This document shows positions 5,153 through 38,151 of a DNA stretch of 64,000 nucleotides, in pieces. A model generated the notes under the pieces. It ran no database searches. It saw only the letters and a program-made list of their open reading frames with translations, and was not told where the DNA came from. This DNA is from Bacteroidaceae bacterium (GTDB lineage Bacteria; Bacteroidota; Bacteroidia; Bacteroidales; Bacteroidaceae), in contig JAFSPM010000045.1 in assembly GCA_017442855.1 (NCBI GenBank), forward strand, positions 310,001-374,000, written 5' to 3'. The position numbers and the translations under genes are program-made. The stretch's first letter is position 1, and the number at the start of each line of letters is the position of its first letter.

Positions 5153-5162
5153 ATATCTTTAT

Positions 5163-6146: not shown

Positions 6147-6154
6147 AATCTACA

Positions 6155-7228: not shown

Positions 7229-7237
7229 TTCTTACAC

Positions 7238-8107
7238 TTAGTTTCGTTGTGCAAACAAACTCATAAGAGATTTCACGTAGTCTTGGTCGGTACGGATGGA
7301 CACGCTGTCAACATTACTCTTCTGGAAGATGTCGTCGAGCGTCGTTTTCTGTGCTATCCACCAGTCGTGATGGGCTTTACGTACTGCCTTCGATGAGGTG
7401 TCAATCCATCGTTCCACACCCGTTTCGGCATCTTTGACCTTCATCAGACCTATTGCCGGCAACTCTTCCAGACGACGGTCGTACACTTGCAAGGCCACCA
7501 CGTCGTGCTTCTGGTTGGCAATGGTCATTGCATTCTTGAAGTCCTTGCGGTCGATGAAGTCGGACAGGATAAAGGCTGTACATCTGCGTTTCATCACGTT
7601 GGTGAGGTATTGCAGTCCTACCCCAATATCTGTCTTCTTGCTCTCAGGATGGAAATCAATCAACTCTCTGATAATATAGAGGATATGTTTCCTTCCTTTC
7701 TTGGGAGGGATGAACTTTTCAATCTTATCGGAGAAAAAGATGACACCTATCTTATCGTTGTTCTGCATGGCCGAAAACGCCAAGGTGGCCGCTATTTCAG
7801 TCACCATATCACGTTTCATCTGCTTGACTGTACCGAAATCCAGACTTCCGGAAACATCTACCAGCAACATGACCGTTAACTCACGTTCTTCCTCAAACAC
7901 CTTGACGTAGGGCTTGTGGAAGCGTGCGGTTACGTTCCAGTCGATATCGCGAATATCGTCGCCATACTGGTATTCACGCACCTCTGAGAAGGCCATACCC
8001 CTACCCTTGAAGGCCGAATGATATTCGCCAGCAAAGATATTGTTGGACAACCCACGGGTCTTGATCTCAATACGACGGACTCGCTTTAATAACTCGGTAG
8101 TTTCCAT
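7238..8107 (-). CDS. DUF58 domain protein (VWA-like, MoxR partner)
   Basis: 289 aa, soluble. It carries the DUF58 signature YQYGDDIRDIDWNVTARF (about residues 45-64), then LLVDVSGSLDFG at about 80-91, a VWA-type metal-site motif. No signal peptide or membrane helix is visible. DUF58 proteins are almost always encoded next to a MoxR AAA ATPase, as here (19-base gap), and are presumed to be its substrates or adaptors. It completes the usual MoxR-DUF58-BatA-BatB order. Confidence 0.9.
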   Translation of the reverse strand: METTELLKRVRRIEIKTRGLSNNIFAGEYHSAFKGRGMAFSEVREYQYGDDIRDIDWNVTARFHKPYVKVFEEERELTVMLLVDVSGSLDFGTVKQMKRDMVTEIAATLAFSAMQNNDKIGVIFFSDKIEKFIPPKKGRKHILYIIRELIDFHPESKKTDIGVGLQYLTNVMKRRCTAFILSDFIDRKDFKNAMTIANQKHDVVALQVYDRRLEELPAIGLMKVKDAETGVERWIDTSSKAVRKAHHDWWIAQKTTLDDIFQKSNVDSVSIRTDQDYVKSLMSLFAQRN

Positions 8108-8125
8108 AAGCTGAACAGCTTGTTA

Positions 8126-9121
8126 TCAAGGAACCTTCACTTCATCCAAAATCATGCTCACAATCTCGTCGGCAGTGAGGTTGCTGGCTTCTGCCTCGTA
8201 AGACAAACCAATGCGATGGCGCATCACATCGTGAGCCACAGCACGCACATCCTCTGGGATGAGGTAGCCGCGATGCTTGATGAATGCGTAGCTGCGAGCG
8301 GCCAGTGCCAAGTTAATGGAAGCACGAGGTGAACCGCCAAAACTGATCATGCCCTTGAGCTTTTCTAAGCCGTACTGCTCAGGATAGCGCGATGCAAACA
8401 CGATGTCGAGGATGTATTGTTCAATCTTCTCGTCGATATAGACCTCGCGAACCAGTTTGCGGGCTTCGATGATCTCTGCTGCAGTGATGACAGGCAGTAT
8501 GTTGGTTCTGTCGCCATTGATATTCTGACGGATGATGAGTTTTTCTTCGTCGAGCTTAGGATAGTCGATCACTACCTTCAGCATGAAACGGTCCACCTGG
8601 GCCTCTGGCAACTGATAGGTTCCCTCCTGTTCGATAGGGTTCTGAGTAGCCAACACCAAGAACGGTTCGGGCAATTTGAACGTCTCGCTGCCAATGGTGA
8701 CCTGACGCTCTTGCATAGCCTCCAACAGAGCACTCTGCACTTTGGCTGGGGCACGGTTGATTTCGTCGGCCAGTACGAAGTTAGCAAACACAGGACCTTT
8801 CTTCACTTGAAACACTTCGTCTTTCTGACTATATACCATAGTACCTATCACATCGGCAGGGAGCAAGTCGGGTGTAAACTGTATGCGACTGTATTTCGCG
8901 TCGATCAACGATGCCAGTGTCTTGATGGCTAATGTCTTAGCCAAACCTGGTACGCCTTCCAACAGTACGTGACCATCAGAAAGTAAGCCAATCAACAAAG
9001 ATTCTATCAGGTGTTTCTGTCCTACTATTGTCTGGTTCATGCCAGTAGTAAGATGCGTGATAAATGCGCTTTTGCTTTCAATCCGCTCGTTCAGTTCGCG
9101 GATATTAATTGAATCTGCCAT
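8126..9121 (-). CDS. MoxR-family AAA+ ATPase
   Basis: 331 aa. Walker A GVPGLAKT (56-63), Walker B with LADEINRAP, sensor region LATQNPIEQEGTYQLPEAQ and a C-terminal lid. These are hallmarks of MoxR chaperone-like ATPases. It is the first enzyme gene of the Bat operon (also called batM in some annotations) and probably remodels or loads the VWA proteins downstream. It begins 7 bases after the preceding HU-LysM gene ends, so transcription may start further upstream. Confidence 0.93.
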   Translation of the reverse strand: MADSINIRELNERIESKSAFITHLTTGMNQTIVGQKHLIESLLIGLLSDGHVLLEGVPGLAKTLAIKTLASLIDAKYSRIQFTPDLLPADVIGTMVYSQKDEVFQVKKGPVFANFVLADEINRAPAKVQSALLEAMQERQVTIGSETFKLPEPFLVLATQNPIEQEGTYQLPEAQVDRFMLKVVIDYPKLDEEKLIIRQNINGDRTNILPVITAAEIIEARKLVREVYIDEKIEQYILDIVFASRYPEQYGLEKLKGMISFGGSPRASINLALAARSYAFIKHRGYLIPEDVRAVAHDVMRHRIGLSYEAEASNLTADEIVSMILDEVKVP

Positions 9122-9128
9122 AGTTTTT

Positions 9129-10562
9129 TTATTTCTTTACTAATTTAGGAATTCTTAGTTTAGTACCCTCTGGTATGTTGTCCGGATTCTTGATAACGTC
9201 TTTATTATATTCAATGATGCAGGCGTACATAGCATTGTTACCATAGTATTTTCTGGAAAGAGAAAAGAGTGTCTCTCCCTTTGACAATACGTGTGTTTCT
9301 ATCTCACCTTCGACAACATATTCGTTCTTCCCTACTTTGAGCGTGGTAGCCGACTTAGTTGTTTGAGTAGCAGGCTTTGCTGCTTGGGTAGCTGCGCTCG
9401 CTGCAGGCTTGGTGGTTGTCTTTGGCTGCTCTGCTGCAGAAGTAGTAGGTTGTGTAGCTGCAGGAGTAGCTGGTTGAGTTTCAGCCTTAGGAACAGACTC
9501 TTCCCTGACGGTGATGGGGGCTGTTACCTCCTTCTTGACAGGTTCCTCAGACTGTGTCTGTGCTTCAGCAGCAGGAACTGCTACAGAATCAGGTGCAACA
9601 TCTGGTTGGGTTGTTTCAACGGGAGCCTCTATTGTACTTTCAGCCTCTGGCTGCTGGGTATTGATTTCTGAAGAAAGCGGTGTGATGGGCTTTGCATCAT
9701 TATTCGCCAAATCAGGATAATAGATATAAGCGACAATGCCCAAGCAGATCATGATGGTTAGCACCGCCAAGAACATCAGATAAGGTGTGGCCGATCTGTC
9801 GGCTTTACGAGAGATTTCCTTGCGTTTTTCCTCAGTCAACTTCAGGGCCATCACTTCTTCTTGATGACTCACGGGCTGGTCTTTCTTCTTAATGGCATCA
9901 TCATCAAAAATCGACAGTATTGTTGCATCTGCTGGTTGTTCAGCTTCGGCCTGAGGTGCTTCACTTTCTGTCACAGGCTCTTCTGTTACAGCCTCTTGAA
10001 CCTCATCTTCTTCAGAAGGATCAGAAGGTGCAGGCTCCTCAGCCACTGGTTCTTCAACAGCAGGCACTTCTTCCACAACTGGCTCGACTGAAGCAGCTGG
10101 TTCGTCTATAGGTTCAGCTTCGGCAACAACAGATGCTGTTTCGACTTGAGGCTCTGCTTCTATTACAGCTGGCTCCTCCTCTTTAATTTCGTCAGAGAGG
10201 GCGTCGATAAGGTTTTCCTCTGGTGCATCGATGGCAACACCATCGGCCAAAACTACTGTCTGGAATGCGGAGAAAGGCTTGTTTACTGCCTCTTTGATAT
10301 TGTTGTCGGGAGTAAAGGTTATCTTTGAATGACCTTGTATCTCGAAGCGTTCGCCTGTATTTACATTGATGCTCTCACTGCTATCAACCTCGATTAGTTT
10401 AAAGGTACCGAAACCTTTTATCTTGACGTACTTGTCTTTTTCAAGACCCTCTTGAATCACTGAGAAGAACTCTTTTATGAAAGCTTCTGCATCTTTACGG
10501 TTGATACCACAACTCTCAGCAAATTCGTCGGTAAGATTTTGTATATTAAGTTTTTCGTTCAT
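9129..10562 (-). CDS. HU-like DNA-binding domain fused to membrane anchor and LysM
   Basis: 477 aa with an unusual order. An HU/IHF-like domain (about 1-95; KIKGFGTFKLIEV and a PDNNIKEAVN tail) is followed by a long acidic, Glu/Ala/Pro/Val-rich linker (about 105-225). A membrane helix follows at about 261-283 (YLMFLAVLTIMICLGIVAYI), then a Thr/Pro/Ala-rich extracytoplasmic linker, and a LysM domain at the end (VLSKGETLFSLSRKYYGN). LysM binds peptidoglycan. The layout would tether DNA to the envelope from inside to outside, but this is inference. It lies in tandem with the next HU gene (5-base gap). Confidence 0.85.
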   Translation of the reverse strand: MNEKLNIQNLTDEFAESCGINRKDAEAFIKEFFSVIQEGLEKDKYVKIKGFGTFKLIEVDSSESINVNTGERFEIQGHSKITFTPDNNIKEAVNKPFSAFQTVVLADGVAIDAPEENLIDALSDEIKEEEPAVIEAEPQVETASVVAEAEPIDEPAASVEPVVEEVPAVEEPVAEEPAPSDPSEEDEVQEAVTEEPVTESEAPQAEAEQPADATILSIFDDDAIKKKDQPVSHQEEVMALKLTEEKRKEISRKADRSATPYLMFLAVLTIMICLGIVAYIYYPDLANNDAKPITPLSSEINTQQPEAESTIEAPVETTQPDVAPDSVAVPAAEAQTQSEEPVKKEVTAPITVREESVPKAETQPATPAATQPTTSAAEQPKTTTKPAASAATQAAKPATQTTKSATTLKVGKNEYVVEGEIETHVLSKGETLFSLSRKYYGNNAMYACIIEYNKDVIKNPDNIPEGTKLRIPKLVKK

Positions 10563-10567
10563 CGTAT

Positions 10568-10840
10568 TTACTTGAATTTATCTTTCAACATGTTGCTTGG
10601 TCGGAAGGTAAGTACCAATTTAGGAGGCACCAACAAACGTTGTTTGGAAACCGGGTTGACGGAAATGCGCTCCGACTTCTTACGTACTTCGAACGATCCG
10701 AAGTTCTGAATGGCAATACTATCGTTATTCTGCCATTTATCAGTCATCATTTGCGTCAGCGTGAAAATCATATCAGAGACATCCCTGGAGGAACTCTCAC
10801 ATCTGCGCGCCAATTCAGCTATAAAATCTTTGTTGTTCAC
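10568..10840 (-). CDS. HU-like DNA-binding protein
   Basis: 90 aa, one HU/IHF domain: helical N-terminal half, then AIQNFGSFEVRKKSERISVN and the C-terminal PPKLVLTFRPSNMLKD, matching the DNA-binding arm and final helix. HU proteins bend DNA and compact the nucleoid. The start is GTG at 10840; no in-frame ATG lies near. A near-consensus -7 box (TATCTTTA, 10853-10860) precedes it. It is probably cotranscribed with the HU-LysM gene and perhaps the Bat operon. Confidence 0.88.
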   Translation of the reverse strand: MNNKDFIAELARRCESSSRDVSDMIFTLTQMMTDKWQNNDSIAIQNFGSFEVRKKSERISVNPVSKQRLLVPPKLVLTFRPSNMLKDKFK

Positions 10841-10925: not shown

Positions 10926-12224
10926 TCACACTATTTGTCCAAAAAGGTCATAATCTTCAGAAGAAGTAATCTTTACTTGACAAAAATTACCAATTTGTAA
11001 CGTTTTATCTGTCTTTTCAATCAGCACTTCTGGGTCAACTTCTGGCGAGTCAAATTCGGTGCGCCCCACAAAATAGTCGGTTTCTTCGCGATCGATAATG
11101 ACTTTCAGTACCTGACCTACCTTTGCTTGGTTCAGTTCGGCAGATATCTCTTGTTGAATGGCCATTAGTTCATCCAATCGCTGTTGCTTCACCTCTGGTG
11201 TGATAGTGTCTTCATAATGAGTAGCCGCATAGGTGCCTTCTTCCTCAGAATAAGCAAAAGCCCCCATTCTATCGAATCTCATATCGCGTACAAACTGCTT
11301 GAGTTCTTCGAAATCGCTTTCCGTCTCACCAGGATGTCCTACCATGAGCGTAGTTCGGATATGAATGCCAGGGACTTCTTTTCGCATGGTCTCGATTAAC
11401 TGATAGGTCTCAGCTTTGGTAACATGACGATGCATCAGGTCCAACATGTGGTCGCTGATATGCTGCAAGGCGATGTCGAGATAGCGACAAATATTAGGGT
11501 GTTTACGCATGACGTCGAGCAATTCGAGTGGGAAATGTGAAGGATAGGCATAATGAAGTCTGATCCACTCTACACCAGGTACTTGTGCTATTTTGTCCAC
11601 CAGTTCGGCAATCATCTGTTTCTGGTAAAGGTCGATGCCGTAATAGGTAAGTTCCTGGGCAATGATTTGAATCTCCTTTACGCCCTGTGCCACCATGTTT
11701 TTCACTTCGGCCAGTATTTCCTCCATAGGGCGCGAATGATGAGCACCCGTGATGATGGGAATGGCGCAATACGAACAATGTCTGTCGCATCCTTCAGATA
11801 TCTTAAGGTATGCATAGTGTTTGGGAGTAGTAAGCATGCGCTCGCCCAACAATTCATTGCGTTCAGCTGCACCTATATCATGTAACAAGCCTGTCCAGTC
11901 GAACTTGCCATAAAACTTATCTACTTCAGGAATTTCTTGTTGTAGTTCGCCTTTGTATCTTTGTGAAAGACATCCCATTACATATAGTTTCGAGAGCCTG
12001 CCCTCTTGCTTGGCCTGTACGAAATCGAGTATCATGTTGATGGATTCCTCTTTCGCATCACCAATGAAGCCACAGGTATTGATGACGGCAATCTTAGCTT
12101 TGGGAGTTTCAGGATCGTGGTGGGGATTATAGCCGGATGCACGCAACATACCCATCAGGCGCTCAGAATCCACAAGGTTCTTCGAGCATCCTAACGTGAT
12201 AATATCAATGTCTTTCCTTCTCAT
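10926..12224 (-). CDS. rimO: Ribosomal protein uS12 methylthiotransferase RimO
   Basis: 432 aa, full length. MTTase N-domain with three cluster cysteines (Cys13, Cys51, Cys85), radical SAM core with CDRHCSYC (Cys146, Cys150, Cys153), and a C-terminal TRAM domain ending VKITSSEDYDLFGQIV. RimO adds a methylthio group to an Asp of ribosomal protein uS12. The motif SYCAIP and the opening LGCSKNLVDSE distinguish it from MiaB. It overlaps ftsY's stop by one base, so the two are translationally coupled. Confidence 0.95.
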   Translation of the reverse strand: MRRKDIDIITLGCSKNLVDSERLMGMLRASGYNPHHDPETPKAKIAVINTCGFIGDAKEESINMILDFVQAKQEGRLSKLYVMGCLSQRYKGELQQEIPEVDKFYGKFDWTGLLHDIGAAERNELLGERMLTTPKHYAYLKISEGCDRHCSYCAIPIITGAHHSRPMEEILAEVKNMVAQGVKEIQIIAQELTYYGIDLYQKQMIAELVDKIAQVPGVEWIRLHYAYPSHFPLELLDVMRKHPNICRYLDIALQHISDHMLDLMHRHVTKAETYQLIETMRKEVPGIHIRTTLMVGHPGETESDFEELKQFVRDMRFDRMGAFAYSEEEGTYAATHYEDTITPEVKQQRLDELMAIQQEISAELNQAKVGQVLKVIIDREETDYFVGRTEFDSPEVDPEVLIEKTDKTLQIGNFCQVKITSSEDYDLFGQIV

Positions 12225-13180
12225 TATTCACCGCCAAACAGAGAGTCGACGAATTCTTTTCTACGGAATACTTGTAGGTCTTCCATCCCCTCGCCCAATC
12301 CGATGTATTTAACAGGAATCCTGAATTGGTCAGAAATGCCAATGACTACACCACCTTTGGCCGTACCGTCCAATTTCGTCACAGCCATAGCCGTTACTTC
12401 CGTGGCCTTGGTAAACTGTTTTGCCTGCTCGAAAGCGTTTTGTCCGGTAGAGCCATCGAGCACCAGCAATACTTCTTGTGGTGCATCAGGTACTACCTTC
12501 TTCATGACGTTTTTGATCTTGGTCAGCTCGTTCATCAAGCCAATCTTATTATGCAGTCGTCCGGCAGTATCGATGATTACTACATCGGCATTATTGGAAA
12601 CGGCAGAGCTCAACGTGTCGTATGCCACAGAGGCAGGGTCAGAGCCCATTTGTTGTTTGATGACAGGCACACCCACTCGATCGCCCCATATTTGAAGTTG
12701 CTCAATGGCTGCAGCCCTGAAGGTATCAGCAGCTCCAAGATAAACTTTCTTACCAGCTTTCTTGAACTGATAAGCTATTTTGCCAATGGTGGTGGTCTTT
12801 CCGACGCCATTCACACCTACTACCATAATGACATAAGGAGTAGATTTGAGAGGCGCTTCAAAATCATCCACATCATCAGTGTTGTTCTCAATGAGTAAAG
12901 CTGAAATCTCTGACCTGAGAATGTTATTCAGTTCAGAGGTGTTCATATATTTGTCTTGGGCCACACGCTGTTCTATGCGCTCAATGATCTTCAATGTGGT
13001 TTCTACGCCCACATCTGAGGTAATGAGCACTTCCTCCAGGTTGTCGAGTACTTCATCGTCCACCTTAGATTTGCCTGCTACGGCGCGTGCCAACTTGCCA
13101 AACACACTCTCTTTGGTTTTCTGCAAGCCTTTGTCTAATGTCTCTTTCTTCTCCTTAGAGAATAATCCGAAAAATCCCAT
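12224..13180 (-). CDS. ftsY: Signal recognition particle receptor FtsY
   Basis: 318 aa, short form without the long acidic A-domain. NG domain with G1 GVNGVGKTTT, DTAGRLHNK (G3), TKLDGTAKGG (G4 and downstream) and GLGEGMEDLQVF at the end, all diagnostic of FtsY. It is a GTPase that docks SRP-bound ribosomes at the membrane. The N-terminus MGFFGLFSKEKKETLDKG is a membrane-targeting amphipathic segment. A -7 box (TATCTTTG) lies 22-29 bases upstream of the ATG. First gene of an ftsY-rimO unit. Confidence 0.95.
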   Translation of the reverse strand: MGFFGLFSKEKKETLDKGLQKTKESVFGKLARAVAGKSKVDDEVLDNLEEVLITSDVGVETTLKIIERIEQRVAQDKYMNTSELNNILRSEISALLIENNTDDVDDFEAPLKSTPYVIMVVGVNGVGKTTTIGKIAYQFKKAGKKVYLGAADTFRAAAIEQLQIWGDRVGVPVIKQQMGSDPASVAYDTLSSAVSNNADVVIIDTAGRLHNKIGLMNELTKIKNVMKKVVPDAPQEVLLVLDGSTGQNAFEQAKQFTKATEVTAMAVTKLDGTAKGGVVIGISDQFRIPVKYIGLGEGMEDLQVFRRKEFVDSLFGGE

Positions 13181-13201
13181 AGCTCATCATTTTAATTGAT
13201 G

Positions 13202-13209
13202 CAAAGATA
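13202..13209 (-). promoter_or_regulatory. -7 promoter element upstream of ftsY
   Basis: TATCTTTG on the minus strand, an exact TAnnTTTG match, 22 bases before the ftsY ATG. A -33 TTTG is not evident at 19-21 bases; ATTG is the closest. Confidence 0.55.
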
Positions 13210-13236
13210 TAGAAATCTCACAATATAAGCAATAAA

Positions 13237-13269
13237 AAAGCTTTCTTACTTGCACTGTAAGAAAGCTTT
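13237..13269 (-). terminator. Terminator of the rpmB-rpmG-DUF4295 operon
   Basis: A 13-bp perfect stem, AAAGCTTTCTTAC with GTAAGAAAGCTTT, around a 7-base loop. On the minus strand it is followed by a T-rich tract. It lies 28 bases past the last stop codon of the ribosomal operon. Confidence 0.88.
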
Positions 13270-13296
13270 GTATGATTGTTAAAGAAGTTCAGCGTT

Positions 13297-13455
13297 TTAT
13301 TTCTTGAAGAAATCCTGTACCTTCTCATTCTGTACCATCTGCTCATCAAAGATATAGGCACCAGTCTTAGGCGACTTTACCATCTTGATAACCTTAGCAT
13401 ATGCGCGACCCTCTTTTGAGCCTGTCTGCAATGTAGCGACTGTTTTCTTTGCCAT
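13297..13455 (-). CDS. DUF4295 ribosome-associated small protein (52 aa)
   Basis: The sequence begins MAKKTVATLQTGSKEGRAYA and ends QDFFKK; 10 of 52 residues are Lys or Arg. It is the third gene of the bL28-bL33 operon (15 bases from rpmG). The family is confined to Bacteroidetes. I recall that it was identified as an extra large-subunit protein (bL38) in a Bacteroidetes ribosome structure; that assignment is from memory. The location in a ribosomal protein operon supports it. Confidence 0.85.
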   Translation of the reverse strand: MAKKTVATLQTGSKEGRAYAKVIKMVKSPKTGAYIFDEQMVQNEKVQDFFKK

Positions 13456-13470
13456 AGTAGTAAACTATTA

Positions 13471-13659
13471 TTATTTAATTTCCTTATGAACTGTCATTCT
13501 CTTGAGGATAGGATTGTACTTCTTCAGTTCCAGTCTCTCAGGAGTGTTTTTCTTATTCTTAGTAGTGATGTAGCGAGAAGTACCGGGCAGACCGCTGTCC
13601 TTCATCTCTGTGCATTCAAGGATAACCTGCACTCTATCGCCTTTAGATTTCTTTGCCAT
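13471..13659 (-). CDS. rpmG: Large ribosomal subunit protein bL33
   Basis: 62 aa. Conserved bL33 features: [11 protein letters not shown] near the N-terminus, then [20 protein letters not shown] and [15 protein letters not shown] at the end. It lacks the paired CxxC zinc motifs (only one Cys), so it is the zinc-free form. Middle gene of the rpmB-rpmG-DUF4295 operon. Confidence 0.95.
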
Positions 13660-13681
13660 AACTTCTTTTCTCCTTTAAATA

Positions 13682-13942
13682 TTAACCAATCACTTTAATC
13701 TCCTTCCAATCGCAATAGCCCTTCTCTACAGCCTGCTTCAAAGCAGCATCCAGGCCCATCTTGTTGATTGTTCTCAAACCGTTAGCACACAGCTTCAGGC
13801 TAATCCAGCAGTCCTGCTCTACATAGTAGAACTTCTTTGTAAACAAGTTCACATCAAATGTTCTCTTAGTTCTTCTCTTTGAGTGTGAAACATTGTTGCC
13901 AATCATGGCTTTCTTTCCCGTAATTTGACAAATCTTTGACAT
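13682..13942 (-). CDS. rpmB: Large ribosomal subunit protein bL28
   Basis: 86 aa. Starts [20 protein letters not shown], followed by [13 protein letters not shown] and the C-terminal [20 protein letters not shown]. These are the standard bL28 signatures. First gene of the small ribosomal operon; the gap to rpmG is 22 bases. Confidence 0.96.
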
Positions 13943-30985: not shown

Positions 30986-32410
30986 TTATGCCTCTGCTGA
31001 GGGCTTAGCTTTCTCAGTGACTTCCTGTGACTGTTTTTCTGCTTCCTGTGCCTTTTTCTCGGCCTCCTCCTGTTCCTGCTTCAGGTGTGCCTTATACAGC
31101 TGCTTCATCTCCTGCTGCATCTCGCGCGCATACTCCTCAGGCATCTCAGGATAGCACTCGTTGCAGTTCGGACAAGCCTTCAGAACGGCACACGCAGGAT
31201 ACTTCGCACAATGTTTGCAAGCCTCTATCCAGTCATAGCCCATCTCCTTGAAGTAAGCAATCATCTGCTCATCAAAGCCTTCTTCGCTGATATGTCCAAC
31301 GTGGTGACTGTCAGTATAATGCTCGCATTTGGTAATGTATCCATCCGGCTGAATCACCACACAGGCATCATTGTCAGCCATACAACTGCCCGATCGTACA
31401 ATGCCCTCGAACGAATCACGATCATACATTCCCCATTCCGTCATCTTGTCTTGTATCTGTCGCATTTTCTGTAGCAATACCTTGCGTTTCTTGTCGTCAC
31501 TTATCCCTGTACGCTTGTTCTTGTCCTCAAACAAGAGATGTGTGTAAGCATGCAGGTTCTTGTTGTCCTTGAAGCGCTCATGCAGCTCCTCCGTCACCCG
31601 CTCCAGGTCGTCGGCATTATGCATATCTATGTTCATGCGGATGCTCACAGAGATATCCGCCGCCAACAGGTGACCAATGTTCTCCATCACTTTTTCGTAG
31701 GCATTCACCCCCTTATAGATATAAGCCTTCACACGGTTGTAAGTCTGCTCCGTGCCGTCTATGGTAATCTGAATTTGATTCAGTTTCCACTCGTCGTGCG
31801 CCTCCTTCACCGTCTCGGCATCCATCAGATAGCCATTGCTGATCATGGAGGATTCATATTTCACGTTCGCCTCCTTCAGTCTGTTGCAAATCAGGCTGAT
31901 AATGGGCTTATTAAACAGCGGCTCGCCACCAAACCACTCGATGTTCACAGGTTCCCCGCCACAATGCTTGATGATGTATTCGGCCGTCTGCTGCGCCGTT
32001 TCCTCCGTCATCGGTCTGCGTGCTTGCCCCAGCTCGTAGCAATAGAAGCAGCGGGCGTTGCAGTCGCTGGTGGTCATGATGGTATAGCCCGTGATGTGCG
32101 TCTTCTTGGGTGCCAGCATACGCGCCACGTTCGTATATTGTCGGCTCAGCAAGCAGTCGTCGTGATCCTCAGGCACCAGGAACCAATGGTTTATCAGTTC
32201 AGGCAAGTCGGTGGGACATTGCTCAAACACCTGCTGTTCCTCTTTCGACAGCAGCACCATCTCTTTGGTCATGTTATGCAGTAGCAGCAGGCCATCATCC
32301 ACGGCGGTCTGCACCACAAAGTTCATCAGGCGGTAAGTCGCTCCCGTCCGATGTTTCTGATTGCCCAATAGTTTGAAATAGGGCTTTGCCGGTTCAAAAA
32401 TCGTTTTCAT
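30986..32410 (-). CDS. Radical SAM/SPASM peptide maturase
   Basis: 474 aa. Residues 1-105 form an N-terminal domain without cysteine clusters, likely to bind the leader peptide. The radical SAM core carries CNARCFYC (Cys117, Cys121, Cys124) and the GGEP motif (161-164). The SPASM region has about ten Cys from GSCMADNDAC to CPNCNECYP for two auxiliary FeS clusters. The last 35 residues are a charged Glu/Lys/Gln tail. Such enzymes form thioether or carbon-carbon crosslinks in RiPP precursors. Two leader-bearing small genes lie directly upstream on the same strand. The start at 32410 falls inside a remnant of a precursor gene. The modification cannot be told from sequence. Confidence 0.88.
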   Translation of the reverse strand: MKTIFEPAKPYFKLLGNQKHRTGATYRLMNFVVQTAVDDGLLLLHNMTKEMVLLSKEEQQVFEQCPTDLPELINHWFLVPEDHDDCLLSRQYTNVARMLAPKKTHITGYTIMTTSDCNARCFYCYELGQARRPMTEETAQQTAEYIIKHCGGEPVNIEWFGGEPLFNKPIISLICNRLKEANVKYESSMISNGYLMDAETVKEAHDEWKLNQIQITIDGTEQTYNRVKAYIYKGVNAYEKVMENIGHLLAADISVSIRMNIDMHNADDLERVTEELHERFKDNKNLHAYTHLLFEDKNKRTGISDDKKRKVLLQKMRQIQDKMTEWGMYDRDSFEGIVRSGSCMADNDACVVIQPDGYITKCEHYTDSHHVGHISEEGFDEQMIAYFKEMGYDWIEACKHCAKYPACAVLKACPNCNECYPEMPEEYAREMQQEMKQLYKAHLKQEQEEAEKKAQEAEKQSQEVTEKAKPSAEA

Positions 32411-32438
32411 CTATGCTCAACACTCGCTTGTCTTTCTC
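32394..32438 (-). pseudogene. Remnant of a sixth precursor leader overlapping the maturase start
   Basis: In the frame offset from the maturase, the minus strand reads EKDKRVLSIDENDF then a stop. The first eight residues plus the Asp-Glu match the opening of the five intact leaders (EKRVLSIELDDE), and the DNA shares CGAGTGTTGAGCAT exactly. There is no in-frame ATG upstream, and the leader stops after about 11 codons. It looks like a decayed or recombined precursor gene whose end was joined to the maturase. Confidence 0.6.
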
Positions 32439-32496
32439 CAAAAATATCAATCTAATAGTTATTTCTTCTGCTCAATCTGATTGTATCCTCATGCTG

Positions 32497-32712
32497 CTAT
32501 CCGTTTTTGGGGGAGCACCCCTCATACGGATAGATATTACTTATCCGGCCGCCTCCACCTACATAGCCGCCCGTCGCCTGCTCCAAGTCATCTTCGCTCA
32601 GTTCCTGGCGCATCACCACTTTCTCATCGCTGCCCATGCCAGTGATAGAAACCTTCTTCACTTCATCGTCAAGCTCAATGCTCAACACTCGTTTTTCTTT
32701 CTGCTCTTCCAT
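32497..32712 (-). CDS. RiPP precursor peptide 1 (71 aa)
   Basis: Leader of 49 residues (KRVLSIELDDEVKKVSITG, then SDEKVVMRQELSEDDLEQATGG at its end, given here in two parts) closed by the double-Gly site at 48-49. The 22-residue core is YVGGGGRISNIYPYEGCSPK plus NG, with one Cys, three Tyr and a run of four Gly. It lies 86 bases upstream of the maturase in the same direction and 33 bases after precursor 2, so the three probably share a transcript. The leader end resembles Nif11-type double-Gly sites, but the N-terminal half does not. Confidence 0.85.
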   Translation of the reverse strand: MEEQKEKRVLSIELDDEVKKVSITGMGSDEKVVMRQELSEDDLEQATGGYVGGGGRISNIYPYEGCSPKNG

Positions 32713-32745
32713 AGACTAATTTTATAAAACCATTTGATTTGACTA

Positions 32746-32937
32746 CTAGTATTGATGTTTTCTACATCTTGGTAATAGTATTTTAGATCCTCCGCTGGCC
32801 TGATCAAGGTCCTCTTCGCTGAGTTCCTGCTTCATCACTACGGTTTCATCACTGTCCGTGCCAGTGATGGAAACTTTCTTCACTTCATCGTCAAGCTCGA
32901 TGCTCAACACTCGTTTTTCGTTCTTCTTCTCTTCCAT
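32746..32937 (-). CDS. RiPP precursor peptide 2 (63 aa)
   Basis: Leader of 50 residues (MEEKKNEKRVLSIELDDEVK, then a stretch ending ELSEEDLDQASGG) with only scattered substitutions against precursor 1. The core of 13 residues, SKILLPRCRKHQY, is basic with one Cys and is the shortest of the set. First gene of the precursor 2 - precursor 1 - maturase run; it begins 46 bases after the ATPase reading frame stops, so read-through from the ATPase promoter is possible. Confidence 0.83.
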   Translation of the reverse strand: MEEKKNEKRVLSIELDDEVKKVSITGTDSDETVVMKQELSEEDLDQASGGSKILLPRCRKHQY

Positions 32938-32983
32938 AATCTATGTTGTTAAAGGGTTCGTAATAATATAACCATCACTTTTG

Positions 32984-34181
32984 TTAATATAGAAAGCCCG
33001 CTAACCATAATGGCAATTTCTTACCGATGGGGAATTCCATAGAGTCAGCCAGAATATATGAGTTGGGAATACCGGCTATTTGGTCGAAAGACTTATCTTT
33101 GCCCCCAACCTCAATGGTTATCTTTCCGTCAATCTTGAAATCACCCTGAGCCGTTCCGTATTCTACAGTATGATTGTTCGACAATTGATTAACGACATAA
33201 CATTCGCGTATAGTACCAATCTTCTGCGCTGAGCTCATGGCATAGTGCATGTTGGGATTGTGAAGGTAAATCTTATCGGGTTTCTGCATCTTGGTCACTG
33301 ATTTGTTGTCGGTATAGAGCAGATTAAGCAGTTCTGCCTTCTGCATGCTGGAAAGATAACTAAGAACGGTGTTTTTGTTGATTTCCAGGTAAGATGCGAA
33401 TTTGGCAATGCTTACATCATAGGGTACGTTGTTAGCCAGAAATAAAAGCATGGCTTTTAGTTTGCGTGTATAGGCAGGATCCACGCCGCAGAATTGTGTC
33501 ATCTCCTGATCAATGATAAAACTTACCACATTCTCTATTCGGCTATAGTACTCTTGTTCATTTCCGTCATAAAAGGGATAGTAGCCCACGTGCAGATACT
33601 CTTCAAAGAGTGCTTGGGGGTTGACATACCCCGCAAACCTTCTGGCAAATGGCGTCTGCATCGCTCAGAATCTCATCTAAAGTATAGTAAGGTAATTCTA
33701 TGCCTTTATAGAAATGCAAGAACTCTCGAAATGAAAGTCCCGCCATATCGTAACTGAGCACCCGTCGCGACAAGTCGGCATCCGCATTCAGTATCTGCAA
33801 CAGCGATGAGCCTGTAAACGTTATCTTCATGTCGGGCCACAAGTCAGTGATTTCTTTTAGCTCTTTGCTCCAAGTAGGGTATTTATGAACTTCGTCAAGG
33901 AAAAGATGCTTGCCGCCCATCAGATGAAAACGCTCCGCAACTTCAAGCAGTGTATGATTGGTGAAATACATGCTGTCCATCACACAATAAAGGGCTTCAC
34001 CTGCATTTACGCCATACTTTTTCTTGATGTATTGGCGCATTAGGGTTGTTTTGCCAACGCCGCGAGAGCCTCGTATCGACACCAACTGTTTTTCCCAGTC
34101 GATGTTGTCCATCAATTGGCGAACAATCTTCATGCTGACCTGGGATACCAGTACTCGATGCTTCTTAAACAGAATTTCCAT
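32984..34181 (-). pseudogene. AAA ATPase (AAA_14 plus DUF4143 type), broken by a frameshift
   Basis: Two overlapping frames make one protein of about 398 aa. The first (34181 to about 33643) carries Walker A GSRGVGKTT (38-46) and Walker B HLFLDEVHKYP (about 93-103). The second continues with YVNPQALFEEYLHVGYYPFY and ends in the DUF4143-like nuclease-fold domain. Removing one G from the GGGG run at about 33637-33640 restores KVCGYVNPQ across the break. The family is common in Bacteroidetes and often accessory; its role is not established. Either a real inactivation or a homopolymer sequencing error explains the break. Confidence 0.85.
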
Positions 34182-34212
34182 GACTATATATTATACTTCA
34201 TACTTTTAGGAA

Positions 34213-34245
34213 CAAAGGTAAAAAAAACTTATTGCAATAACCAAA
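34213..34245 (-). promoter_or_regulatory. Promoter of the AAA ATPase gene
   Basis: On the minus strand: TTTG (34242-34245), 21 bases, TACCTTTG (34213-34220), a consensus Bacteroidales promoter 32 bases before the ATG. A 12-bp palindrome sits inside the spacer. Confidence 0.75.
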
Positions 34246-34273
34246 TCTTTATGAAAAAAAGTTGTTGCAATAA
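34229..34273. promoter_or_regulatory. Paired palindromes, candidate repressor operators
   Basis: TTATTGCAATAA (34229-34240, a perfect palindrome) lies between the -33 and -7 boxes. TTGTTGCAATAA (34262-34273, one base different) lies just upstream of the -33. The centres are 33 bp apart, about three helical turns. This arrangement is typical of an operator pair bound by a dimer; the binding protein is unknown. Confidence 0.55.
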
Positions 34274-34298
34274 GCGACTTCCCTAATAAATAGCTTAT

Positions 34299-34505
34299 TC
34301 AAGCATGCGAGTAGCATACAACTCTCTGCGAATGGTGGTCAGGATCCGTCCTAAAAATTCCTCCCGTCGCCTGCTCCAAGTCTTCCTCGCTCAGTTCTTG
34401 GCGCATCACTACTTTCTCATCACTGTTCACACCAGTGATAGAAACTTTCTTTACTTCGTTGTCGAGTTCTACTCGTAGCACTCGCTTTTCTTTGTTCTCT
34501 TTCAT
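34299..34505 (-). CDS. RiPP precursor peptide 3 (68 aa)
   Basis: Leader of 49 residues (MKENKEKRVLRVELDNEVKK, ending ELSEEDLEQATGG) and a 19-residue core, IFRTDPDHHSQRVVCYSHA, with one Cys and three His. It shares RVLRVEL rather than RVLSIEL with precursor 5, suggesting two leader subtypes. It stands upstream of the ATPase on the same strand, separated by the ATPase promoter, and is preceded by the 535-base gene-free stretch. No strong promoter of its own was found. Confidence 0.82.
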   Translation of the reverse strand: MKENKEKRVLRVELDNEVKKVSITGVNSDEKVVMRQELSEEDLEQATGGIFRTDPDHHSQRVVCYSHA

Positions 34506-35040
34506 GGAATAAATATTATGGTATAAAATTGTTGTAAAGTAAGAGATTATTCAGCAAACATGCATTTTTTTACGGAAGTATTTAACCAAACGCGACCTTT
34601 TTCACCACTTCTGCATCAAAGTCAAGGCTATAATGCCTGCTATCAGTCGTCGGAAAACTCGCTATGGGCGGCGGTAAAGCTTACTACCAGGTGACGGAGA
34701 GTTTCCTACCACTGGCCGCAATATCTGCTATCACCCGTCGCAGTATCTGCCGTACCCCCATAGGAGATACTGCGATGACTCATAGGAGGCTTTGGAACGA
34801 CCCGTAGCAGATACTGCAACAACCTGTAGAAGGCATTCCTTTGAAAATGGACGGAAAGGAGGCTGTATAAAGGCAAGAAATTGCCTGACCATTTCGACAT
34901 GAAACATGCGTATGCAACAAGCCAGAACATACAGCGGCATGACACAGGCCTAGTTTGATGCCTGCGTCAAAGCGTATGCAAACAAGCCAGCTAACAAAGA
35001 AAGAAAATCCCCCGCATTTTTTGCGGGGGATTTATAAACT
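34506..35040. repeat. Gene-free stretch with an array of short direct and inverted repeats
   Basis: No credible gene. The core GCAGTATCTGC occurs at 34740-34750, with a variant GCAATATCTGC at 34718-34728 (22 bases earlier). Its inverse occurs at 34764-34773 (GAGATACTGC) and 34807-34817 (GCAGATACTGC). Each is flanked by related words such as CCCGTCG, CCCGTAG and ATAGGAG. A strong terminator lies at 35005-35033. The array could be a degenerate interspersed repeat or a recombination or binding site cluster. Confidence 0.6.
35005..35033 (-). terminator. Terminator after precursor 4
   Basis: A 12-bp perfect stem, AAATCCCCCGCA with TGCGGGGGATTT, and a 5-base T loop. On the minus strand TTTTC follows, so it ends the WbsX-precursor 4 transcript 8 bases past the stop codon. 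It could also work in the other direction. Confidence 0.9.
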
Positions 35041-35265
35041 TTATTTGCTAAAAAAATCACAGGAAAATGTATGATGATGCCTTACAACTACGCAATGACC
35101 ACTACAATATTTTTTTTCTGTTCCTGCTGCTACATCAAGGTCATCTTCGCTGATTTCCTGCTTTATTACCACCTTCTCATCGCTGTTCTTGCCAGTGACG
35201 GAAACTTTCTTCAATTCGTTGTCGAGCTCTATGCTCAACACGCGTTTTTCATTCTTATCTTCCAT
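35041..35265 (-). CDS. RiPP precursor peptide 4 (74 aa), divergent cleavage site
   Basis: Leader (MEDKNEKRVLSIELDNELKK, ending EISEDDLDVAAG) followed by the longest core: TEKKYCSGHCVVVRHHHTFS then CDFFSK. It has three Cys and four His. The usual double-Gly is replaced by Ala-Gly followed by Thr, so leader cleavage may differ. It lies 12 bases after the WbsX-like lipoprotein stop and directly before a terminator, making a two-gene operon. Confidence 0.82.
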   Translation of the reverse strand: MEDKNEKRVLSIELDNELKKVSVTGKNSDEKVVIKQEISEDDLDVAAGTEKKYCSGHCVVVRHHHTFSCDFFSK

Positions 35266-35277
35266 GATCTTATTGTT

Positions 35278-36480
35278 TTATTCTACTGCTTTTTCCTGAC
35301 GAAAGACGTGCTGAACAGCCTCTAAATAGCCAAAGCCGAAATAGCGGTCGGGCAGCAGATAGCTTCCTTCCACCCATTCGTTCCAAGCATTTATCATGAT
35401 GAAGGGAGGCTGCTGAGGATGCTCATCAACATACTTCTTGGCCATTTCAAGGAAAGATTCGAAAGCACGCGGTGTCTGGTTGAAACGCGTGATGTCGTTC
35501 TCTCCCTTTGCAGGGAAACGGGGTGTGTCATCCCATCCGATGGAAACCGTAGGAAAGACGGGAATGCTAAAAGCTTTTTCCCATTGCTCACGTATCTGGA
35601 TAGCGTTGGCACCATAGGTTAGATAGTCTGGGGTGAAACCACCCATGTTATAAAATGCGTGGCTGTTGATGCCGAGCTTGTCGATACGTTCCTGCTGGGC
35701 TGTGATGAAGTCTTCAGCCAAAAAACTGCCGCCGCCGTTGTTCTGCTGGATGTGGAGCCCCTTGAAACCGGCTTTCTTCACTTCGGCACGGAAGTATTTC
35801 ATCGCCTTGGCGGCTTCGTCTAACGTACCGAAACTTTGGACGAACTGATTCATGTCGAAGATTCCAAATACAGGACAGCCGTCTATCTTCACATAGTTCT
35901 TCTTCTTGAAATACTGATTGATAACTCTTGCCACAATCGTCTTGAACTGATCCATGTTCACCTTCGGGTCGAAAAGGAGCGAAGTGTCATCACCATAAAG
36001 GTGATAGTTCCAGTAGTTCTTCTTCACTTCATGATTGGCCCACATGATGTAGAAGTTCATCTTCCCGTTATTCTTGGCACCAAGGAAACCATCGTCGAGA
36101 GCACCTTCCAGATAAGGATAGTCCATATACCAATACCAGTCATAGACGAAGGTATTCACACCATACTTCAAGGCCGTGTCTATCCATTTCTCCACCACCT
36201 TGGGGTCATCGTCGTGCCCGTAACCCCAAAGCGGCTGCTTCGGCTGATAATGACCAGGGAAGCGAGGATTGCCCTGCTTGATGACTTCCCATTCCCCTTC
36301 TCCTTGCGGCCACAGGTATTTATGTCCGAGCGAGTCGTCGTGACACGAAGGCCAAACGTAGGCACAGACATAGTATTTATCTCCGCTGGTGGGCTTGATG
36401 TCATTTCCTCCACAGGAGTAGCAGCACATCAGAATCATTGTCCAAATGGACAAAAGCAAAATCTTCATTTTATCCGTCAT
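35278..36480 (-). CDS. WbsX/GH99-like lipoprotein
   Basis: 400 aa. The signal MKILLLSIWTMILMCCYSCG (from residue 5) has a lipobox-like CYSC. The body matches the WbsX-type (PF14307), glycoside hydrolase family 99-like barrel: YYVCAYVWPSCHDD at the start, then FVYDWYWYMDYPYLEG, GCPVFGIFDMNQF and MINAWNEWVEGSYLLP. Such proteins act on glycans, often alpha-mannan or O-antigen-like sugars. The export signal points to hydrolysis outside the cell rather than glycosyl transfer. Cotranscribed with precursor 4, which is an odd pairing. Confidence 0.82.
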   Translation of the reverse strand: MTDKMKILLLSIWTMILMCCYSCGGNDIKPTSGDKYYVCAYVWPSCHDDSLGHKYLWPQGEGEWEVIKQGNPRFPGHYQPKQPLWGYGHDDDPKVVEKWIDTALKYGVNTFVYDWYWYMDYPYLEGALDDGFLGAKNNGKMNFYIMWANHEVKKNYWNYHLYGDDTSLLFDPKVNMDQFKTIVARVINQYFKKKNYVKIDGCPVFGIFDMNQFVQSFGTLDEAAKAMKYFRAEVKKAGFKGLHIQQNNGGGSFLAEDFITAQQERIDKLGINSHAFYNMGGFTPDYLTYGANAIQIREQWEKAFSIPVFPTVSIGWDDTPRFPAKGENDITRFNQTPRAFESFLEMAKKYVDEHPQQPPFIMINAWNEWVEGSYLLPDRYFGFGYLEAVQHVFRQEKAVE

Positions 36481-36561
36481 TTTTGCTAACTATTTCAGCC
36501 GTAATGATAGCATTGTTGTTCTGCTCTTCTATAACTCTGTTATTTTAGTTGTTCAGTTTTA

Positions 36562-37892
36562 TTATATAAAGATGTATTTACAGATGAACAGGACCGCCAG
36601 CACCCACATGGTAATCGAGATGTCCTTGAACTTGCCGGCTACAGCATGACAAGCCACATAAGCAATGACACCGATGAGGATGCCGTCGCTGATGCTATAG
36701 GCCAACGGCATGATGATGATGGTGAGGAAGGCAGGGATTGCCCTGCAATAGTCTTCCCAATGGATGCGCTTGATGGCTGGCATCATCATTACACCTACGA
36801 TGATAAGGGCAGGAGCCGTAGCTGCACTGGGGATGGCCAGGAACAACGGACTGAAGAACAGCGCCAAGGCGAAACACAGTGCGGTGGAGAAAGCTGTAAG
36901 ACCTGTGCGACCACCCTCGCCTACGCCAGAGGCGCTCTCCACATAAGTAGTGGTGGTAGAGGTTCCCAGACAGGCTCCGCAAATGGTGGCTACAGAGTCG
37001 GCCATGAACATCTTGTCCATATCGGGTATATCATTCTTCTTGGCATTGGGATCAGCCAATCCTGCACTCTGACACACACCGATGATGGTACCCATCGTGT
37101 CGAACATGTCGATAAACAGGAAAGTGAAGACCACAACCACCATATCCAGGCTGAGTATCTCACTCCACTCAAACTGACAGAAGATAGGTGCCACGCTCTC
37201 AGGTGTTGAAACCACCCCATTCAGTTTGGTGATAGCCTCGCCTGTAGCCGGATCCTTAATGAACAGACCAATCAGCGTGGTGAGAAGGATACCCCAGAGG
37301 ATGCCGCCTCGCACCTTGGCCATCACCAGTCCCAGGTGATAAACAGACCTAACATGGCCAGCAGGGCGGTACCTTGAGTGATGTGACCAAGACTTACCAG
37401 CGTGGAATCGTTATTCACGATGATGCCGGCATTCGCCATACCGATAAAGGCAATAAACAGACCGATACCTGCTCCGATGGCTTTCTGCAGCGTACCTGGA
37501 ATGGCATTCAGGAGCATAGTGCGTACCTTGGTGACGGTGAGAATGATAAAGATGATACCTTCCAACAGCACAGCGGTGAGGGCGAACTTCCAACTATAGC
37601 CCATGCCCAGACAGACGGTATATACAAAGAAAGCATTCAGTCCCATGCCGGGAGCCAGCGCAAAGGGCTTCTTGGCATAGAGGGCCATGACCAGCGTACC
37701 TATGACGGCTGCCAGAGCCGTAGCGGTAAACACGCTCCCGCCAGGCATACCAGGCAAGGCGCTGAAAATGGTTGGATTGACGGCCAGGATGTAGGCCATT
37801 GTCAGGAACGTAGTGATGCCCGCCATAATCTCTGTACGGACGTTGTGCTTCTGGAAGTCGAAGCCAAATAACTTTTCAACAACTTTTTTCAT
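36562..37892 (-). pseudogene. NCS2/AzgA-type purine permease, broken by a frameshift
   Basis: The N-terminal part (MKKVVEKLFGFDFQKHNVRT from 37892) holds helices 1-7 with TFLTMAYILAVNP and ALAPGMGLNAFF, typical of the PbuG/AzgA hypoxanthine-guanine permease group. It ends early as GLFITWDW at about 37339. The C-terminal part resumes in another frame (GLVMAKVRGGILWGILLT) with LFIDMFDTMGTIIGVCQSAG and TTYVESASGVGEGGRTGLTA. A single missing base near 37330-37335 explains the break. Joined, it would be about 443 aa, the normal length. A truncated permease would not work. Confidence 0.87.
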
Positions 37893-37944
37893 AATTATTG
37901 GTTTTCCTGTTCTTTCATAACCTAAAACCCTTTTATGGATTTTC

Positions 37945-38151
37945 TTAGGGCAATACTCTGGGACAAGCACCATCTGCAGGGCAGGGACCTGGGCTGAATG
38001 GGAAGCCTCCTGCCGCCTGCTCCAGCTCCTCCTCACCCAGCTCCTGCTTCATCACTACTTTCTCATCACTGCCTATGCCAGTGATGGAGACCTTCTTTAC
38101 TTCGTCGTCGAGCTCTACTCGTAATACTCGCTTGTCTTTGTTCTTTTTCAT
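37945..38151 (-). CDS. RiPP precursor peptide 5 (68 aa)
   Basis: Leader of 49 residues (MKKNKDKRVLRVELDDEVKK, ending ELGEEELEQAAGG) and a 19-residue core, FPFSPGPCPADGACPRVLP, with two Cys and six Pro. It has the clearest promoter of the set (38179-38210), so it can be made independently of the maturase operon about 5.5 kb away. It sits between cbiB and the broken permease. Confidence 0.84.
   Translation of the reverse strand: MKKNKDKRVLRVELDDEVKKVSITGIGSDEKVVMKQELGEEELEQAAGGFPFSPGPCPADGACPRVLP

Follow-up and report, generated by a model that had tools for sequence, protein, structure and literature searches.

What is made from a set of small genes that share one leader sequence, end each in a different short tail and are accompanied by a single radical SAM enzyme? 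The question is raised by a stretch of 64,000 nt from a Bacteroidaceae genome (assembly GCA_017442855.1, contig JAFSPM010000045.1, positions 310,001–374,000), hereafter the window, for which an earlier note had proposed a system of ribosomally synthesized and post-translationally modified peptides (RiPPs) with five minus-strand precursor genes and a gene for a radical SAM/SPASM enzyme. All these open reading frames (ORFs) are present. Our answer, held with considerable confidence, is a dispersed radical-SAM RiPP system combining a common leader, Cys-containing cores, a SPASM enzyme acting in trans, and an NHLP-type C39 exporter. It is supported by the co-occurrence of enzyme and leaders, by a clustered version in the uncultured Prevotellaceae assembly RUG195, and by an exporter encoded elsewhere in the genome; modification of the peptides is predicted. 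The locus comprises:

30986..32410, minus strand: putative radical SAM/SPASM peptide maturase, 474 amino acids (aa); PF04055 at 55.3 bits, nearest NCBIfam family TIGR04463, PDB matches CteB and SkfB
32410..32438, minus strand: relic (~12 codons) of a sixth leader that overlaps the start codon of the maturase gene; read directly, found once in the window and in 0 of 100 shuffles
32463..32479, minus strand: relic of a second precursor family (EQIEQKK stretch); 17-base exact match, 0 of 100 shuffles
32497..32712, minus strand: precursor 1, 71 aa, leader and core YVGGGGRISNIYPYEGCSPKNG; last Cys plus five residues
32746..32937, minus strand: precursor 2, 63 aa, leader and core SKILLPRCRKHQY; last Cys plus five residues
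34299..34505, minus strand: precursor 3, 68 aa, leader and core IFRTDPDHHSQRVVCYSHA; last Cys plus four residues
35041..35265, minus strand: precursor 4, 74 aa, leader ending in Gly-Thr and core EKKYCSGHCVVVRHHHTFSCDFFSK; last Cys plus five residues
37945..38151, minus strand: precursor 5, 68 aa, leader and core FPFSPGPCPADGACPRVLP; last Cys plus five residues

The five leaders have 26 invariant residues and need a single one-residue gap for alignment, and the C-termini do not align. At the DNA level the leaders form a five-copy family of 153 nt, with four copies 75–82% identical to the reference copy, and hence their likeness is not due to chance. As the earlier note had it, they end at a Gly-Gly-type site, Gly-Gly in four precursors and Gly-Thr in the gene at 35041. 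Its description of the cores as alike only in having a Cys holds for their hypervariability, but not for the absence of any other common feature, as the last Cys is followed by exactly four or five residues in all five. Similarly, the five genes stand, but not as the full set: they constitute about a quarter of the 21 copies in the genome, and the two relics had been overlooked. One relic is a 29-base leader start, the other lies just downstream of precursor 1, and the same 17 bases are found in intact genes of the second family elsewhere in the genome.

Leaders and cores in the genome and the genus

The genome holding the window (G000; 2.76 Mb, 49 contigs, 80% complete) yields 22 matches to a single leader query, the last few weak, and 21 precursors by profile after removal of truncated copies, on contigs C7, C15, C22, C25, C33, C37, and C44. 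Seventeen copies have near-complete leaders, one of them (C15, ~145.5 kb) lacking an in-frame start, and four have degenerate leaders. In a search of 158 genomes of the genus, a profile built from 16 leaders gives 96 matches in total, all in six genomes (G000, 23; G008, 24; G013, 19; G112, 7; G113, 8; G135, 15); at the order level the family is present in one of 393 genomes (206 genera), namely G000, and an earlier leader profile gave three of 61 genomes. Thus the situation that would have spoken against a RiPP system, leaders widespread without a radical SAM partner, did not arise: the family is rare, and its six genomes comprise four with the enzyme, one with a fragment at the edge of a contig, and one without a match. 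The leaders (hereafter KRVL leaders) match no curated leader model above its cut-off, the best NCBIfam models being XyeA (14.0, cut-off 33) and YM-216391 (14.6, cut-off 35), and the NHLP/Nif11 leader models TIGR03793 and TIGR03798 give no match to the five KRVL precursors at E ≤ 1.

For 16 leaders of G000 the median ratio of nonsynonymous to synonymous substitution rates (dN/dS) is 0.10 (95 of 120 pairs giving a value), with dS near saturation (median 1.35), and the mismatches at the three codon positions are 0.19, 0.09, and 0.47. The leaders are under purifying selection while the cores are hypervariable. The core set comprises 88 precursors from the six genomes, after exclusion of those with the profile match ending before position 48, those with E > 0.001, and exact within-genome duplicates; 75 have near-complete leaders and 13, partial ones (at contig edges or degenerate), and two copies with otherwise near-complete leaders, one of them in G000, have no in-frame Met. 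A leader and a variable core in one small ribosomal product, as expected of RiPP precursors, are hence observed in 88 cases.

Cys is present in 79 of these cores (one Cys in 48, two in 22, three or more in nine), compared to ~20 expected from the Cys frequency of the window (1.17%) and ~49 for random reading-frame tails (maximum 62 in 200 draws). All 21 cores of G000 differ, and each has a Cys. Clustering at 60% similarity produces 81 groups, only five with more than one member, and therefore cores are rarely common to different species. The last Cys is 3–6 residues from the C-terminus in 55 of 73 Cys-bearing groups (shuffled mean 19.5, maximum 33) and, without clustering, in 58 of 79 cores, the lowest fraction being that of G013 (9 of 16). 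Near-complete leaders alone give Cys in 68 of 75 cores, 3–6 residues from the end in 50 of the 68. The distance between Gly-Gly and the first Cys is widely spread. Since Cys keeps its distance from the C-terminus and not from the leader, the enzyme may recognize the tail, and a small ring at the C-terminus is a possible product. Tails of 3–7 residues (n = 59) are basic, with 71 Lys/Arg and 12 Asp/Glu in 281 residues. Lys at position +3 past the last Cys (16 vs. 8.9, p = 0.007) was noticed in the same data and is weaker than it looks, and so is the excess of Cys-Pro (19 of 117 vs. 7.5 expected, shuffle maximum 18). The longest core of the 88, with 159 residues and repeats of an MGMCSGYEQQ-like unit, belongs to a precursor on contig C49 of G013 (~2037–2666 of stretch L168).

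Copies of such varied quality could also constitute a mostly decaying family, that is, repeats multiplied by recombination, the majority of them non-functional. The two relics in the window, leader fragments on C37 and C15 that stop at residue 32, the four degenerate leaders and the copy without a start in G000, two RUG195 units, of which one is frame-broken and the other has a truncated core, and the absence of a PqqD gene adjoining the window enzyme agree with it, whereas the low leader dN/dS, the retention of Cys in 21 of 21 cores of G000, and an upstream motif do not, which makes this explanation very improbable. The motif, TAnnTTTG, is of the Bacteroidetes type and precedes 34 of 73 precursors (of the 88) by at most 150 bases, with six on average and 14 at most in shuffles, and only three of 15 in G008; precursor 5 of the window has it in the form TATCTTTG. 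The two fragments cut at residue 32 (C37:307172 and C15:41324) have the same new ending, EEKVDAIR, and common 3′ DNA, as if both had recombined with one repeat.

A second leader family (MATLTNEQIEQKK...), also of the Gly-Gly type, has seven copies in G000 on contigs C15, C28, C32, and C37, four of them 30–81 bases downstream of a KRVL precursor, and is present in four of 158 genomes, in one through a 14-residue match only. Out of nine listed cores (G000, G006, G008) eight have no Cys, and one on C28 has it. One copy passes the bacteriocin_sig model (TIGR01847; 16.0, cut-off 15.7) with 13 residues ending at Gly-Gly; for the four second-family precursors searched no other leader model passed, and TIGR03793 and TIGR03798 had no match at E ≤ 10. 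This suggests a two-peptide output, one peptide modified and the other plain.

The enzyme, the exporter and the predicted chemistry

The window enzyme exceeds the cut-off of the Pfam Radical_SAM domain (PF04055; 55.3 vs. 29.5 bits) and falls just short of that of SPASM (19.0 vs. 21.5 bits). Alignment of six enzymes shows no variation at C117, C121, or C124 (CxxxCxxC), nor at seven Cys within the SPASM region. No NCBIfam maturase cut-off is reached among the best 25 of 48 families, the nearest being TIGR04463 (C-rich peptide maturase; 125.1 bits, equivalog cut-off 525), with 117.7 bits for the Clo7bot maturase TIGR04334 (cut-off 600) and 107.3 bits for the PapB ranthipeptide maturase NF047865 (cut-off 340). 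The nearest solved sequences in PDB are CteB (5wgg, 1.8e-12) and SkfB (6efn, 2.7e-7), which are also the top Foldseek matches of the enzyme model. Both are SPASM enzymes acting on Cys, and we take both, by the titles of their PDB entries and by their known chemistry, to be thioether formers. Relatives of the enzyme come from Prevotella sp. (Tb.RUG.396), RUG195, an uncultured Bacteroidales (RUG12887, with proteins 100% identical to those of G135 over the common stretch), and one uncultured bacterium; RUG names denote rumen assemblies, and the window species is probably a rumen Prevotella.

The enzyme is found at E ≤ 1e-40 in four of the 158 genus genomes, G000, G008, G112, and G135, all of which carry leaders, and G113 has the fragment at a contig edge. 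As the earlier note observed, the window encodes no C39 transporter; the search for an unlinked one that it proposed led to an NHLP-type operon on contig C32, one of three C39 matches in G000. This exporter is present with at least 84% identity in seven of 158 genomes, that is, in all six leader genomes and in G006, the next matches being a fragment in G153 (62%) and a full-length protein in G159 (45%). The two ABC proteins of the operon exceed the NHLP equivalog cut-offs (TIGR03796, 869.9 vs. 853.3; TIGR03797, 718.9 vs. 709.4), while the HlyD protein is under that of TIGR03794 (104.7 vs. 156.2 bits), which still is its best-scoring family; the operon continues with an adaptor and a TolC-like protein. 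The hypergeometric chance is 6e-7 for enzyme and leader and 4e-10 for exporter and leader, kinship being ignored; both figures overstate the association, as the leader genomes are probably related. Co-occurrence, together with the clustering in RUG195, points to this enzyme as the cognate modifying enzyme of the precursors, its action being predicted.

Under the proposed scheme, about twenty small genes would produce peptides with one ~49-residue leader and each with a different short core. The SPASM enzyme and, in the relatives, a PqqD-type protein would bind the leader in trans, and the enzyme would most likely form a thioether between the C-terminally placed Cys and a carbon atom in another residue. 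The C39 peptidase of the unlinked NHLP-type exporter would then cut after Gly-Gly and release the peptide. A single enzyme would serve all precursor copies. The peptides may have an antagonistic or signalling role, the hypervariability of cores favouring competition between strains.

Thioether chemistry at Cys is likely. For a Cys sulfur-to-carbon crosslink of the ranthipeptide or sactipeptide type the basis is conservation of Cys and similarity to CteB and SkfB. The same system might perform another radical chemistry (a carbon–carbon or carbon–oxygen crosslink, epimerisation, or trimming of the tail), with Cys serving as an anchor or a redox handle. Given that Cys is the sole residue kept across otherwise unrelated cores and that the two best PDB matches are thioether formers, we consider this rather unlikely. 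In the more specific form of the thioether proposal, one enzyme would close a C-terminal ring between the conserved Cys and the basic tail of four to five residues in dozens of scattered cores, yielding sets of tailed rings peculiar to each species, where cores turn over and leaders stay near constant; this is a tentative suggestion, serious enough to be stated but doubtful. The proposed tailed rings would be about the size of the autoinducing peptide (AIP) thiolactone pheromones.

A clustered version and the probable dispersal of precursors

The best evidence that precursors, enzyme, PqqD-type protein, and exporter form one system is the RUG195 cluster, seen in stretch L134 (19.7 kb of a 38-kb contig), with all genes in one direction and with cores additional to the 88 considered above. 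Its features, in coordinates of L134, are:

3843, 4054, 4265, 4465, 4672: precursor units, one with a three-residue core and one frame-broken
4914–6233: first enzyme
~6230–8320: SpoIIE-domain protein
8324–9673: second enzyme
9670–9915: PqqD (PF05402)
10449–10754: STAS
between STAS and the C39 ABC transporter: HlyD
11642–13777: C39 ABC transporter (TIGR03796, 888.2 vs. 853.3)
after the C39 transporter: partner ABC transporter (TIGR03797, 699.6, just under 709.4)

The C39 transporters of RUG195 and G000 share 73% identity. Stretch L133, from nearly the same strain as RUG195 (98–100% identity), has the identical order from SpoIIE on, and in L135 the end of a precursor is directly before the enzyme. 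The leaders of the RUG195 array are 84–98% identical at the DNA level, and none of 10 core pairs scores above the best of its own 100 shuffles. Four RUG195 cores with Cys, one of them frame-broken, have Cys plus 3–4 residues at the end; the L135 core deviates. The SpoIIE-type phosphatase and STAS genes lie inside or beside the RiPP cluster in all three stretches, which suggests partner-switching regulation of peptide production.

The PqqD gene follows the enzyme gene or is fused to it in all seven other assemblies in which the 3′ end is visible (G008, G112, G135/RUG12887, G113, L133, the second enzyme of RUG195, and L135; two of these are nearly the same strain). The first enzyme of RUG195 is not directly followed by PqqD, and the window enzyme is placed like it, directly behind precursors.

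Gene order still connects the dispersed genes. In G008 the enzyme gene lies between the gene of a 928-aa protein, presumably GlnP-like, and a three-gene block, which we take to be ridA-hpt-adk. An orthologue of the 928-aa protein in G000 (84.6%) is encoded on C33 directly behind a precursor, and a second precursor lies 2 kb further up; a homologue in L133 directly precedes the run of SpoIIE, enzyme, and exporter genes. The three-gene block has orthologues next to precursor arrays in G013, in G135 and, as far as the first two genes are concerned, in the stretch from G112. The simplest reading of these gene orders is one ancestral cluster that may have been dispersed later.

Several observations weigh against the dispersed RiPP system. 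The degenerate leaders in four of 21 copies and the copy without a start in G000 lower our confidence slightly. The six leader genomes may constitute one clade, and the co-occurrence then is not independent evidence. The likeness to CteB amounts to only ~15% identity in structural alignment, and the enzyme model is weak (pLDDT, the predicted local distance difference test score, of 60; six sequences), for which reason we base no claim of a built-in recognition domain on its N-terminal fold; that of the precursor is uninformative (pLDDT 53). No PqqD was found beside the window enzyme, in the window, or in stretches L040–L053, L131, L132, and L023–L039, the part of G000 searched. The enzymes of G008, G112, and G135 have no leader gene nearby in the stretches examined (L128–L130), and hence adjacency in a cluster was dropped as the main proof, in favour of RUG195, L135, and synteny. 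Finally, no enzyme was matched at E ≤ 0.001 in G013 (89% complete) despite its 19 leader matches, and nine of the 88 cores lack Cys, with one Cys-free core type recurring across genomes.

The last two points would be expected if the peptides were unmodified double-glycine bacteriocins, exported by the C39 transporter as plain peptides, with the enzyme serving only some of them or another substrate. So would the second family, mostly Cys-free (eight of nine listed cores), and genome G006, which has the exporter and one second-family precursor, but neither a KRVL leader nor the enzyme at the thresholds used. Yet G006 lacks the KRVL leader and the enzyme together; at 80% completeness a single enzyme gene might be missed, but some twenty scattered leaders hardly could be. 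G006 is placed near G000, G008, and G113 in the exporter tree, where forks are open; this fits a joint loss of leader and enzyme and is no proof of it. Moreover, leaders adjoin the enzyme in RUG195, L135, and the window, and Cys is present in 79 of 88 cores, near the C-terminus and in 48 of them single, while a lone Cys makes no intramolecular disulfide. Plain bacteriocins are thus an improbable explanation, and we retain the dispersed RiPP system.

If it is true, one enzyme provides these relatives of Prevotella with large sets of Cys-modified peptides, sets that are for the most part species-specific, and the majority of the precursor genes lie outside gene clusters. Mining based on clusters would then detect one enzyme and a few precursors at most; the leader profile, by contrast, gave 96 matches in six genomes. 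For the making of peptide libraries, a maturase that accepts unrelated cores by the dozen, each with Cys towards the C-terminus, would be of practical use, and the RUG195 cluster beside the dispersed version would allow for a direct test of precursor escape, leader homogenisation, and core replacement.

Other neighbours of the precursors are diverse. In search of a linked immunity gene or partner, the 241 ORFs located at most 2.5 kb from precursors were compared all-versus-all, and none resembled a dedicated partner; the comparison produced the second precursor family, self and antisense copies, orthologous flanks, and a few families common to two or three loci, presumably esterase-, flavodoxin-, kinase-, and peroxidase-like. 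Phage origin was considered as well, and of the 45 pattern matches obtained when viral contigs were scanned with the leader profile, none was confirmed. In the window, pieces of an AAA_14 ATPase and of a DUF4143-like protein (under the Pfam cut-off) lie in different frames between precursors 2 and 3 (32984–34181) and look like one broken gene. A dispersed repeat at 34634–34863 has copies of ~140–230 bases, 82–92% identical, in four other stretches of G000 (L046, L053, L047, L131). Two overlapping ORFs in different frames at 36562–38036, directly downstream of precursor 5, presumably correspond to one permease of the xanthine/uracil type, and a long gene run at ~38233–61623 resembles what we take to be cobalamin synthesis and uptake.

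Comparison with known systems

A literature search, thin on subscription journals and thus weak as evidence of absence, retrieved nothing on the KRVL leader or on scattered radical-SAM precursors. In a survey of 1,136 Bacteroidales strains Gly-Gly precursors with C39 exporters were noted, and the part of the text consulted does not mention the KRVL family (PMC10352776). According to a study of the Hungate1000 collection, ranthipeptides are largely absent from Bacteroidota (n = 2) (PMC13289728).

The GG-Bacteroidales system (TIGR04148/TIGR04150) is similar in having a Gly-Gly precursor, a SPASM maturase, and a C39 exporter in Bacteroidales, but its leader differs and its maturase is paired with a pseudo-rSAM protein. 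The RUG195 enzymes score 49.9 and 64.1 bits against TIGR04148 (cut-off 300), and this family is absent among the best 25 of 48 families for the window enzyme. G000 has a separate system of this type (C12:1–19500, stretch L053), with a TIGR04148 maturase, a TIGR04150 pseudo-rSAM protein, a C39 exporter, and a short Gly-Gly precursor.

The peptide export trio TIGR03794/03796/03797 of NHLP/Nif11 systems is described in PMC2887384. By score, the two ABC proteins of our exporter resemble it, and an NHLP-type exporter clusters with precursors in RUG195; unlike in NHLP/Nif11 systems, neither the KRVL nor the second leader fits a curated leader model of that kind, and HlyD is under its cut-off. The systems of CteB (SCIFF ranthipeptide) and SkfB (sactipeptide), with the enzymes nearest to ours in both sequence and structure searches, differ in their precursors, since our cores are short and hypervariable and mostly have a single Cys, and the enzymes are distant, as noted above.

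The organisation is closest to that of prochlorosins (ProcM/ProcA) and synechococsins (SyncM/SyncA), where a promiscuous enzyme acts on precursors with a Gly-Gly leader and many hypervariable cores, and the precursor genes can be scattered across the genome (PMC10783134). Scattered hypervariable precursors with one leader are observed here as well (21 copies on seven contigs), and service by a single enzyme is probable. Those systems have a lanthipeptide synthetase and Nif11-type leaders and belong to cyanobacteria, while here the enzyme is of the radical SAM/SPASM type, the leader is unrelated and not of the Nif11 type, and Cys is near the C-terminus. We read the system as a new radical-SAM RiPP family with a prochlorosin-like organisation.

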